Positions 18,618 through 27,270 of a stretch of DNA of 32,183 nt are shown here, piece after piece (positions within the stretch are counted from its first letter, which is position 1; every line of letters begins with the position of its first letter). The stretch lies in contig NZ_PDDM01000042.1 of assembly GCF_002914585.1 (NCBI RefSeq), forward strand, positions 1 through 32,183. Direction: 5' to 3'. The notes beneath the pieces were generated by a model. That model did not search any database. It was not told the origin of the DNA and saw only the letters and a list, made by a program, of their open reading frames with translations. Made by a program: the position numbers and the translations under genes. The stretch comes from Pseudanabaena sp. BC1403 (GTDB taxonomy: Bacteria > Cyanobacteriota > Cyanobacteriia > Pseudanabaenales > Pseudanabaenaceae).

Positions 18618-19829
18618 TTAACGATGTTTGACCAGAAAAGAGGGCAAATCTACTTTTGAATTTGGGCGAAACGATCGCACTGGCGTTGGTTCTGGTAGAG
18701 ATTCAAGCGATCGCTCTGATCTGTAACCTTGATCATAGGAAGATCCACTAGTATTTTGAATCGGTTCCGTTAAGTGCCTAGCTGGTTTTTCGACTAGCAG
18801 ACGATCTAATGCACCACTAAGTTGAAGGGCATGGTGCTGATGACGTACTGATTGCTCCTTCCAATGTTGGATCGCCGCTTCATATTCAGATGCTTTGGAT
18901 GCTTGATGCAGAACTTGATTTTGCAATTCTTCGATTTGCTGTTCTAATTCTTGTACTCTTGTCAGATCGGTGACATATTCATTTTCAAGCCCTCTCAAGG
19001 ATTGCTGCAATTGTGCTCGATTAGAGAGATGTTGAATTAGTTCTTCTTCTAGTTGATCCCGTTGAGTTGAGACTTCTGATAGCTTAGTTTGAGCTAGCTC
19101 AAGGGTTTTAGTGGATTCTTTAAGCAAAACTTGAGTTGCCTCTAGCTCTGTAGTCAAGGTTCGCTGTGAAATATCTAGCTCTGTATTTTGATATTGCAGT
19201 TGATAAATCAACTCATCTTTGCTATTTATCTCTTGAATATATTTCTGGGTAACTTTCTGGGTTTCAATTTCTAAAGCGATCGCTAAACGATGTTGAAATT
19301 CTTCCTCTAGTTGCAAAAGATGGATTGCTAAGCGATCGCTTAAGTCTCGATCATCCGTGACTGGTGGGTGAGATTGCAACTTGGAAACTTGAATTTGCAG
19401 TTGTTCAAGTTGGTTGGTAAGTTCTGTGACTTGCCGATCTCGATCATGGCTAACACTAGTAATTTCCTGCTCAAGCTGATCAACATATTCACATTCAAAT
19501 TGGTGTTGCGATCGCAGATCTTCTAACTCTTTTTGGATGCGATCGCGATCGGCAGCTAATTCATTAGCCAAAGAATTAGGTTTGATAATTTCTGGGGTTT
19601 TGGACTCATTAGACTGCTGACCATCTAAAATCCAATCATCGGCAAAAGCATCAACGGCAAAAGAATCTATATCATCTAGATTATCTAGCAACATATTGGC
19701 GATCTCAGCAATCTCTTTTTCTTTTAGTCCATCACCACGTAAGAGCGCATCAAGGTCATCGTCATCATTAACGGTTGCGGCGCTAACCAAAACTTCTCGT
19801 AGTGCTGATTCGTGTTTCAATTCACTCAC
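18618..19829 (-). CDS. Large coiled-coil protein
   Basis: A protein of about 403 residues. An acidic N-terminal part (DDDDLDALLRGDG, then IANMLLDNLDDIDSFAVD) leads into a long coiled coil, roughly residues 85-340, with heptads rich in Leu, Glu and Gln (QLEQEITSVSHDRDRQVTEL, EELIQHLSNRAQLQQSLRGL). The C-terminus is Ser/Pro/Arg-rich and probably disordered, ending DLPSFLVKHR. There is no membrane segment. I prefer GTG at 19829 because GAGG lies 6 bases upstream; a TTG at 19871 would add 14 residues. It resembles filament-forming or scaffold coiled-coil proteins of cyanobacteria only in composition; the function is unknown. Confidence 0.8.
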   Translation of the reverse strand: MSELKHESALREVLVSAATVNDDDDLDALLRGDGLKEKEIAEIANMLLDNLDDIDSFAVDAFADDWILDGQQSNESKTPEIIKPNSLANELAADRDRIQKELEDLRSQHQFECEYVDQLEQEITSVSHDRDRQVTELTNQLEQLQIQVSKLQSHPPVTDDRDLSDRLAIHLLQLEEEFQHRLAIALEIETQKVTQKYIQEINSKDELIYQLQYQNTELDISQRTLTTELEATQVLLKESTKTLELAQTKLSEVSTQRDQLEEELIQHLSNRAQLQQSLRGLENEYVTDLTRVQELEQQIEELQNQVLHQASKASEYEAAIQHWKEQSVRHQHHALQLSGALDRLLVEKPARHLTEPIQNTSGSSYDQGYRSERSLESLPEPTPVRSFRPNSKVDLPSFLVKHR

Positions 19830-19987
19830 GGATAACCTCACCCACAATACCGAGGTATTTTTACAAGACAAACATTAACAGACTTTGTCAAGTTTGCAAT
19901 TTTTTTCCTATAATTCTGGTCATAAAGCTAGGTTTTAACAACAAAGGCTGATTTTTTCAGTGTTTATATAGCAATGTAAGAGATAGC

Positions 19988-22470: not shown

Positions 22471-22542
22471 TTAGGGGGCATGGGCAAAAGACAACGTAAC
22501 GAATCTATGTGTCATTGACAACTAACGGTATCAAGCACATGT

Positions 22543-23817
22543 ATGCAAAGTTTTCCTCTAATCTATAGGGCATATTTTATGGCTGCTTGCATCATTGAGG
22601 ATGTTCTTCTTATGCCAATAGATAAAAATAATTTAACTAAGGAAAATATAGTCGCACTTTTAAGTGGATATAGAATTTCTCCTTCTGAGACTTTGCAACA
22701 GCAGCTAGTTGAAATTCACATGGGTTTGATCCGTGAAACGATCGCTTCTCTACCAATAACATTAATTAACAAAAGAAATATTGGTGAGCGCCGATCCGCC
22801 GAGCGCCCTGACAGAGAAGAACGTCGAGTATCGAATCACAGAGTGGGGGAACGTAGATCTAGCGATCGCGAATTGCTCGAAGTGGGGAAACAAGGATTAA
22901 AGAAGGCTCTAATCCAATATAATCCTGATACAAACCCAAATTTTTCTGAATTTGCGCGATCTCATATTCATGAGCATCTAGAGAATTTTTTGCAAAGACA
23001 GTATCTCGACAATCGTAATGAACCTCAAGAGGTCGAAGAAGCTGATCCGCAAACTACGATCACCCGTAAACACGAAACGCTGGAAATTTTGCAAGCCTAT
23101 CGCGCTAACCCATCTATCAAGCTACGAAACAAACTTGTAAACCTAAATATTGGGTTGGTTCGTCGCGAAGCCTATCATTGGAAAAATCAATGCCAAGAAA
23201 GCTTTGAAGACTTGATGCAGGTTGGCTCGATTGGGTTAATTAATGCGATCGAGCGATTCGATGTTAGCAAAGGTAATGCCTTTAGCTCCTTTGCAGTGCC
23301 ATATATCAAAGGCGAAATCCAACATTATCTTCGCGATAAAAGCCCGACCGTACGAATGCCTCGCGCTTGGCTAACAACCTATAACCAAGGCTGTAAAATC
23401 ATCCGCAATAAACGTACTGAAACTGGACGCGAGCCGTCAAGCCAAGAAGTCGCCAACGAGCTAGGTATCACTGTTAATGAATGGTATGACATTAAACTTG
23501 CATGTCAAAACCGATCGCCAATTAGTCTTGACACACCGATCGATCAAAGTGAAGATAGCTCGACATCCATCGGAGATCTGGTTACTGATCAAAAATATCA
23601 AAGCTTTCAACTTGCTCAAGAAGATAATATTCGGCTCCAGCAAGCTCTCGATCTACTAGAAGATCGCACCCGTGAGGTTGTTGAGTTTGTATTCCTCAAA
23701 GAATTTACCCACCGTGAAGTTGCTGACACTCTAGGGATTAGCGCTGTCACTGTTTCACGGCAACTTAAGAAAGGCTTAATTGCCCTCAAAAAGATTTTGG
23801 CTACACCAATCGAATAA
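22543..23817 (+). CDS. SigF-type sigma factor with a duplicated sigma-2 region
   Basis: A 424-residue group 3 (SigF/B-like) sigma factor, much longer than the usual 250-260. The functional part is residues 175-424: sigma-2 (NLNIGLVRREAYHW, SFEDLMQVGSIGLINAIERF, NAFSSFAVPYIKGEIQHYLR), sigma-3 (VRMPRAWLTTYNQG to about 325) and sigma-4 (LEDRTREVVEFVFLKEFTHR, then ISAVTVSRQLKKGL). Residues 34-152 repeat the sigma-2 pattern in weaker form: LSGYRISPSETLQQQLVEIH, LLEVGKQGLKKALIQYNP, FSEFARSHIHEHLENFL. The copy is split by an Arg/Glu-rich insert with two GERRS units (81-110). In-frame ATGs at 22579 and 22612 are alternative starts. SigF controls motility and envelope genes in Synechocystis; the copy's function is unknown. 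Confidence 0.9.
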   Translation: MQSFPLIYRAYFMAACIIEDVLLMPIDKNNLTKENIVALLSGYRISPSETLQQQLVEIHMGLIRETIASLPITLINKRNIGERRSAERPDREERRVSNHRVGERRSSDRELLEVGKQGLKKALIQYNPDTNPNFSEFARSHIHEHLENFLQRQYLDNRNEPQEVEEADPQTTITRKHETLEILQAYRANPSIKLRNKLVNLNIGLVRREAYHWKNQCQESFEDLMQVGSIGLINAIERFDVSKGNAFSSFAVPYIKGEIQHYLRDKSPTVRMPRAWLTTYNQGCKIIRNKRTETGREPSSQEVANELGITVNEWYDIKLACQNRSPISLDTPIDQSEDSSTSIGDLVTDQKYQSFQLAQEDNIRLQQALDLLEDRTREVVEFVFLKEFTHREVADTLGISAVTVSRQLKKGLIALKKILATPIE

Positions 23818-23877: not shown

Positions 23878-24282
23878 TTAGATTGGAGTAGTCGCTTGTA
23901 CTCTAGCGCGAGCAAGACTCAGATTTTGCTCAGCTTGAATTTTGCCTTGCTTATCTTCAGCCTTAATACCAGCCAAAGCTTGCTCAGCATCTGCAAGTTT
24001 TTTACGCGCTTCTTCAGCATTGATCGTGCTGCCTAATTCGCCACTACGAACCAAAACGGTTACTTCGTTTTCTTCAACTTCAGCAAAGCCACCCGTAAGA
24101 GCGACCGCAGCCCAAGCTTTATCCTTACGAAAACGTAACACGCCAGTTTCAAGCGCCGAAATCAGAGGTGCGTGACCAGTTAAAATACCCAATTGCCCTG
24201 AAGAACTAGGTAAAATCACTTCCTCTGCGACAGTATCCAGAATCGTTTGATCTGGGGCAATTACTTTTACTGTTAGGGTCAT
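23878..24282 (-). CDS. atpC: ATP synthase F1 subunit epsilon
   Basis: A 134-residue central-stalk subunit of the F1F0 ATP synthase that links rotation to catalysis and restrains ATP hydrolysis. The N-terminal beta-sandwich is clear (LTVKVIAPDQTILDTVAEEV, then LGILTGHAPLISALETGVLRF, GGFAEVEENEVTVLV), followed by the two-helix C-terminus (AEEARKKLADAEQALAGI). It starts 3 bases after the atpB stop. Cyanobacteria keep beta and epsilon apart from the main atp operon, as seen here. Confidence 0.97.
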   Translation of the reverse strand: MTLTVKVIAPDQTILDTVAEEVILPSSSGQLGILTGHAPLISALETGVLRFRKDKAWAAVALTGGFAEVEENEVTVLVRSGELGSTINAEEARKKLADAEQALAGIKAEDKQGKIQAEQNLSLARARVQATTPI

Positions 24283-26680: not shown

Positions 26681-26926
26681 ATGTCTGAAATCGCTATAAC
26701 TATAAACAAGAATACTCATGAGGTTCTTTTAAGACTTTCTCAACAGTCTGGTGATAATTTTCAAACTTTGCTGGATAAAGCAGTGGAGCAATATCGCAGA
26801 CAGTTGTTTCTTTTACAAGCGAATCAGGCTTTTACGGCTTTAAGAAAAGACGAGTTATTGTGGCAAGATGAGCTTAATGAGCGTCAGGAATGGGAGCAAA
26901 CTTTAGCTGACGGGATTGATGATTAA
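26681..26926 (+). CDS. Antitoxin of a MazEF-type pair
   Basis: An 81-residue protein upstream of and overlapping a MazF toxin. The N-terminus (ISEVLLRLSQQSG-like helix pattern: THEVLLRLSQQSGDNFQTLL) resembles a ribbon-helix-helix DNA-binding start, and the C-terminus (LLWQDELNERQEWEQTLADG) is acidic and probably wraps the toxin. Its TAA overlaps the toxin ATG by one base (TAATG), so synthesis is coupled. It does not look like classical AbrB-fold MazE. The role is inferred mainly from position and style. Confidence 0.85.
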   Translation: MSEIAITINKNTHEVLLRLSQQSGDNFQTLLDKAVEQYRRQLFLLQANQAFTALRKDELLWQDELNERQEWEQTLADGIDD

Positions 26927-27270
26927 TGCCTCAAAAGATTGCAAGGGGAGAGGTATGGTTAGCAGATCTTAATCCCGTGAGAGGTCACGAACAAGCGGGG
27001 AAGCGTCCTTGTTTGGTAGTTTCTGTAGATTTGTTCAATCAGGGATCTGCTGGATTAGTGGTTGTTGTTCCTATCACTTCAAAGGATAAATCAATTCCTT
27101 TTCATGTGGCGGTTAATCCTCCAGACGGAGGTTTGAAGGTGAAGAGTTTTATTAAGTGTGAAGATGTGCGATCGATTTCTGTAGAGAGGTTGGATAAGCG
27201 CTTAGGAGCTTTATCTACTCAGTCGTTTGCGGATGTAGAAGATCGATTACGCATTTTGATGGGTCTATAG
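26926..27270 (+). CDS. MazF/PemK-family endoribonuclease toxin
   Basis: A 114-residue toxin of the MazF/PemK family, a sequence-specific mRNA interferase. Core motifs are RGEVWLADLNPVRGHEQAGKR (loop with the catalytic Arg), PCLVVSVDLFN, VVVPITSK with the catalytic Thr/Ser, and VKSFIKCEDVRSISVERL, all at the expected places. Length matches the family. It is translated directly after its antitoxin through a TAATG overlap, and the complex probably represses the operon. The cleavage site cannot be predicted. Confidence 0.93.
   Translation: MPQKIARGEVWLADLNPVRGHEQAGKRPCLVVSVDLFNQGSAGLVVVVPITSKDKSIPFHVAVNPPDGGLKVKSFIKCEDVRSISVERLDKRLGALSTQSFADVEDRLRILMGL

Follow-up and report, generated by a model that had tools for sequence, protein, structure and literature searches.

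A SigF-type sigma factor of Pseudanabaena and related genera carries a degenerate second sigma-2 region ahead of its working half

The window, a stretch of 32,183 nucleotides from Pseudanabaena sp. BC1403, holds on its plus strand a single uninterrupted open reading frame of 424 aa (22543-23817) that, judged from its profile matches, is a SigF-type sigma factor of the group 3 family PRK07408. The whole protein scores 410.3 bits against this NCBIfam model, which has a cut-off of 261 (E 3.4e-123). As in an ordinary cyanobacterial SigF, regions 2, 3, and 4 are all present, and they make up a complete SigF in the C-terminal ~245 residues, where PF04542, PF04539, and PF04545 all match over their Pfam cut-offs; we refer to this part as the working half. 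An ordinary SigF, however, has one sigma-2 region in a model of 258 positions, whereas the window protein has an extra, degenerate sigma-2 in front (Table 1).

Table 1. Features of the long sigF gene in the window
Feature	Coordinates	Strand	Basis or remark
Long SigF gene from likely start	22612..23817	+	401 aa plus stop; annotated alternative start ATG 22543
N-terminal sigma-2 copy, part 1: N helix and region 2.1-like	22639..22755	+	Alignment, profile, predicted helices
Arg/Glu-rich insert, two GERRS units, predicted disordered, length variable within genus	22756..22863	+	
N-terminal sigma-2 copy, part 2: regions 2.2 to 2.4-like, polar residues of the working copy lost	22864..23004	+	Alignment, residue conservation
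Acidic linker, 26 residues	23005..23082	+	Alignment, conservation
SigF working sigma-2 domain	23083..23361	+	Pfam PF04542, conservation
SigF regions 3 and 4	23362..23814	+	Pfam PF04539, PF04545

The family placement of the gene was examined in a tree of 62 rows, which took 17 of the 36 long forms and in which the bootstrap had not settled. The long and short SigF copies of the window's family fall together (97/91), with the long forms as one group (96/96) and the short forms as another (100/100), and they lie with group A, the cyanobacterial SigF side of the tree. Paralogue group B is separate (100/100) and has no member from the window's family among the 62 rows. An assignment of the window gene to SigJ is not supported, as the tree sets it apart from group B, which is SigJ by our reading in a comparison without any named SigJ. 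Left out of this tree were two copies with broken frames from one genome (L129 and L146, from G274) and a second group B copy from another (L131, from G046). Passages of a study of Synechocystis report that its SigF is required for type IV pili and phototaxis (PMC2758279).

The ATG at 22612 is conserved, and 6 of the 25 genus rows carry an in-frame stop within the aligned stretch 5' of it; in the printed frames with such a stop, the frame opens after the first ATG and before the second. Given these stops, the true start is probably ATG 22612, which would put the annotated start 69 bases too early and leave residues 1-23 of the annotated frame probably untranslated. An artefact of the start codon or the assembly, or a merger of two open reading frames, is ruled out by the continuous frame, which is found in 25 of the 26 genus genomes (the remaining genome, G016, is 76% complete), and is also countered by purifying selection across the whole frame.

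About 45 bases upstream of the likely start (22505-22550) are conserved in most of 16 genus rows, while the sequence farther upstream is not. This stretch holds an imperfect inverted repeat (ATGTG...CACAT with TTGA...TCAA) and could be an operator or promoter. A structured leader RNA has no support (z from -0.71 to 0.90 in four folds), and promoter-like sites numbered 5 versus 3.4 expected and hence were not used as evidence. Of 15 named loci of the genus, one of them (L153) cut by a contig end, 14 have a homologue of the window's moeA upstream, and 12 have the gene at 23878 downstream. The neighbors are MoeA and TrmD by Pfam, and further neighbors read by eye as atpC and atpD; no conserved operon partner for the long sigF was recognised at the compared loci. 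Elsewhere in the window, the stretch 26681-27270 encodes a likely type II toxin-antitoxin pair, made up of an 81-aa open reading frame and, immediately after it, a protein that resembles PemK/MazF (Pfam PF02452, E 2.6e-32), and the minus strand holds at 18618-19871 a 417-aa frame that looks coiled-coil by eye and has no Pfam match at E 0.001.

Sequence comparison indicates that SigF region 2 is present a second time, in degenerate form, in the N-terminal ~130 residues, and we regard the architecture itself, a degenerate sigma-2 ahead of a complete SigF, as practically certain. A preliminary description of this DNA had matched residues 34-152 to residues 181-267 of the same protein; the repeat is recovered in our alignment at residues ~33-151 and ~176-265, with a score of 88 and a Gumbel p of 3e-8. 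Shuffled sequences gave a mean score of 27.8 (sd 4.6, maximum 48), and 0 of 1000 reached 88. The same test on 17 long forms gave 0/1000 in 14 cases, the exceptions being L062 (9/1000), L057 (287/1000), and L058 (996/1000). A profile built from 46 working sigma-2 copies matched 33 of the 36 N-terminal regions and none of 1800 shuffled regions (best shuffled E 14) at a threshold of E <= 1e-3, with the database size set to 100000 sequences. The three regions missed are those of L057 and L058, from one genus (g22), where no copy is left, and L062, from a second genus (g21), where it is weak. The shuffle tests and the profile with its shuffled controls rule out chance similarity.

The preliminary description had looked to a sigma-2 match of the N terminus alone for support, and such a match exists at the level of NCBIfam and of profiles, but not at the Pfam cut-off. 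Taken by itself, the N-terminal part matches PRK07408 in two stretches (E 3.7e-8) and TIGR02937 (E 0.0018), and an hhalign comparison of N-terminal regions (21 supplied, 19 used) with one Calothrix SigF gave an E of 2.1e-13. The Pfam gathering score for Sigma70_r2 was not reached: the N-terminal parts of the window protein and of L166 have no Pfam match, and that of L167 scores 15.0 bits against a cut-off of 24. A search of PDB sequences with the N-terminal region returned 78 chains at E up to 10, of which the best 60 are sigma factors by name, with SigB on top (8x6g_H, 1.1e-5).

Modelled alone from 21 sequences, the N-terminal domain is predicted to be helical (pTM 0.57), and its pLDDT blocks, insert and termini aside, are 72-89. 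Its best Foldseek match to the PDB has an E of 3.2e-3, with none below 0.001, and VIA-align gives Z values of 8.9-11.4 over 77-111 residues in the best 50 rows, values of intermediate weight among helical proteins, so that the case for the fold depends in part on the sequence profiles. The PDB fold matches listed are, by title, all sigma factors or RNA polymerase complexes holding them, and an unrelated fold, which would have counted against a tandem copy, was not seen in the predicted model. The degenerate tandem sigma-2 copy is borne out by sequence, profile, and predicted fold. The Arg/Glu-rich insert of the preliminary description, with its two GERRS units, is likewise present in the N-terminal copy, where its pLDDT blocks are 38-47; in the other aligned genera, it is absent or short, with a short rudiment in one (L063).

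A domain of this kind could, as the preliminary description had suggested alongside a decoy for an anti-sigma factor, inhibit its own protein in cis. The N-terminal sigma-2 and the charged loop would then pack on the working sigma-2 or sigma-4 and cover the surfaces that bind core or promoter, to be released by a signal or a protease. The domain is folded by prediction, is under selection, and is joined to the working half on the same chain by a 26-residue linker, all of which would suit autoinhibition, and passages on FliA/FlgM describe group 3 sigma factors in the free state as probably compact, with mutually packed domains (PMC4598750). However, the full-length model has a pTM of 0.34 and does not define the relative placement of the two halves, and the domain has been lost in g22 while the working half stays. 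We consider autoinhibition doubtful.

To compare the two copies residue by residue, we used 37 comparable positions that are at least 90% invariant among the 46 working copies, and 11 N-terminal copies, four from the 25 genus rows and seven from the 11 remaining long forms; not included were L062 (no profile match), L057 and L058 (no copy), and L061. At the 17 hydrophobic positions, the N-terminal copies are identical to the working ones in 69% of cases and still hydrophobic in 92%, versus an identity of 23% at the 20 polar positions (permutation p 1e-4), a test limited by the tendency of hydrophobic core positions to persist in any diverged homologue. Each of seven polar positions in region 2.3-2.4 is retained in 42 to 46 of the 46 working copies and in no N-terminal copy (9-11 have a residue at the site), and the region 2.2 Gln falls from 46/46 in working copies to 3/11, with Glu in its place in the N-terminal copy of four genus rows. 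We take these seven positions and the Gln to face promoter and clamp in sigma-70. Because the polar residues are lost in the 11 copies examined, the earlier term "-10-binding-like" holds for the fold and not for the residues of region 2.3-2.4.

These losses bear on a further proposal of the preliminary description, a second core contact, which is weakened because the region 2.2 Gln is mostly gone. In its broader form, this explanation would have the extra sigma-2 sit on the RNA polymerase clamp as a co-sigma, or the Arg-rich loop bind DNA. The sigma-2 fold and the Arg-rich loop found within the genus speak for it, as does the region 2.2-2.4 part, which is the best conserved stretch of the N-terminal copy in the genus. 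Against it stand the loss of the Gln in most N-terminal copies and of the seven polar residues in all of those examined, and the loop is not shared by the other aligned genera in full length. We judge a second polymerase or DNA contact very improbable.

The N-terminal sigma-2 is under purifying selection. Synonymous change is near saturation over all genus pairs. In the 10 that lie closest, out of 120 pairs, pooled dN/dS is 0.111 for the N-terminal sigma-2, 0.188 for the insert, and 0.099 for the linker, versus 0.018 for the working sigma-2 and 0.034 for regions 3-4. The N-terminal copy thus evolves about six times faster than its working counterpart.

The preliminary description had called for a survey of the long form, and this proved to be family-wide. 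Of the 38 genomes of the window's family, 37 have a gene that belongs to the long clade, and all 8 genera are represented, with G016 the one miss; in one of these 37 (G274, L129 on contig 147), the frame is broken by a frameshift inside the working sigma-2 in this assembly. The sample of the class comprised 388 genomes, and the 350 outside the family showed no long form among the matches listed. The frame survey gave non-family open frames of 341 aa or less among the matches listed, and outside frames of 401 aa (G031) and 341 aa (G180), considered as candidates, have one sigma-2 each. In a profile search, all 34 rows of at least 70 bits belong to the family, and the best outside row, among the matches listed, has 65.7. 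The N-terminal copies of two diverged family members (G106 and G116) did not rise above ordinary SigF in that search, and a strongly diverged copy elsewhere could therefore be missed. One sequence that is Pseudanabaenaceae by record title only (L221) is an ordinary short SigF, and an apparent free-standing N-terminal-domain protein (a 190-aa frame in G256) proved to be a long-form gene truncated where its contig (C219) ends.

Within the family, the copy is detectable by profile in 6 of the 8 genera. In g22 (L057 and L058), an extension of ~75-100 residues, acidic and Pro-rich by eye, has no recognisable sigma-2. As read from these sequences, g22 is a natural loss of the N-terminal sigma-2 domain in which the working half remains. 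This loss, together with the nearly unrecognisable copy in g21, the faster evolution of the N-terminal copy relative to the working half, and the varying insert, would be in keeping with a slowly decaying relic of a fusion, folded only to spare the working half from harm. On the other hand, a dN/dS of 0.11 in close pairs is a strong constraint for a relic, hydrophobic class is largely retained at conserved core positions, and the profile still detects the copy in most genera. A decaying relic therefore strikes us as unlikely.

The N-terminal copies form one group (96/99) in a tree of the same 11 copies used for the residue comparison, which carries a long-branch warning and an unsettled bootstrap, and their identities to the candidate donor groups are alike, with no donor singled out. 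Three genera (g17, g18, and g21) have a region 3.2/4.1-like stretch, KYxSFxLxxED, after the N-terminal sigma-2. Shuffles reached the score of this stub in 0/1000 (L066), 1/1000 (L064), and 0/1000 (L062) cases, in windows hand-chosen around the motif; the alignment revealed no such stub in the linker of the window gene. Because of the stub in three genera, two fuller SigF copies were probably joined in frame, and the ancestor was most likely such a pair in one frame, of which the first has since lost most of regions 3 and 4.

We propose that two SigF copies were joined in frame and that the C-terminal one performs the sigma work. The N-terminal copy has lost region 4, apart from the stub in three genera, as well as the polar positions conserved in region 2.3-2.4 and, in most cases, the Gln of region 2.2, while its predicted sigma-2 fold is kept under purifying selection. 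Most likely, though at less than even odds, this copy would act as a sigma-mimic docking domain in cis that offers a sigma-2-shaped surface to a SigF regulator, such as an anti-sigma factor, and the regulator would be held or diverted on the same chain as the working SigF. The architecture, the residue losses, the selection, and the distribution are observed and the fold is predicted, and together they suit a domain maintained for its shape rather than for DNA reading; from them we infer, tentatively, the protein binding, the partner, and the effect of a docking domain. We favor docking over autoinhibition, then a relic, and last a second polymerase or DNA contact. Docking draws support from the sigma-2 homology and predicted fold, from the loss of polar residues with the hydrophobic core kept, from the dN/dS, and from the fact that 33 of 36 long forms still have a copy the profile can detect. 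It is weakened because no partner was found, because g22 no longer has the copy and g21 has only a very weak one, because of the rapid evolution of the N-terminal copy, and because the SigF literature passages, including those of PMC2758279, name neither an anti-sigma factor for cyanobacterial SigF nor a dedicated regulator of its activity.

Adjoining the long sigF, no anti-sigma-like gene was recognised in searches that outside the genus extended to a minority of the neighboring frames. Eight matches to PF13581 in the genome exceed the cut-off, and four of these lie in small frames (147-170 aa); PF13581 is a broad family, and its control was positive in 12 of 14 genomes. RsbW-like candidates for an anti-sigma factor thus exist, as candidates and no more. 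A more far-reaching version, in which SigF would bring its own counter-regulator, a fused second SigF that no longer recognises promoters but as an in-cis mimic captures, or is read by, the anti-sigma machinery and makes output self-adjusting, seems to us doubtful.

Extra sigma-like modules have precedents. RsoA of Bacillus is a sigma-2-like co-sigma that works in trans with a partner supplying region 4; it resembles the present case as an extra sigma-2-like module working with a sigma factor, but in the window protein the module is joined, in one chain, to a sigma factor that is itself complete. Passages of PMC4598750 describe PhyR of alphaproteobacteria as a sigma-factor mimic, whose sigma-like domain has no sigma activity of its own, and a sigma surface offered to a regulator may be the common principle. 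PhyR, however, combines sigma2- and sigma4-like parts with a receiver domain and works in trans, whereas here a sigma-2 copy is fused to a whole sigma factor, and a Pfam search of the full protein, read up to E 10, shows no receiver domain. Sigma modules are also repeated inside one protein in the cyanobacterial family A.5 (e.g., r1_2*r3*r2*r3*r4), according to passages of a 2024 survey (PMC11119718), but there region 3 repeats in SigB-type proteins, whereas in the SigF-type window protein region 2 repeats, with the repeat below the Pfam cut-off. That survey defines domains by Pfam names, and since the N-terminal copies tested all lie below the Pfam cut-off, a Pfam-based survey would miss such a copy. 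Among the best matches in open-licence PubMed Central, no description of a double-sigma-2 SigF was found, and the supplements of PMC11119718 may hold an entry; the component is known, and the architecture is one for which we found no description.

Our results point to a sigma factor that is seemingly doubled, with one half probably converted from DNA reading to regulation, and intermediate stages of this doubled SigF survive in sister genera. If true, the counter-regulator reading would be the PhyR principle built into a sigma factor, and a built-in docking domain, if true, would make the control of SigF testable by simple truncation.
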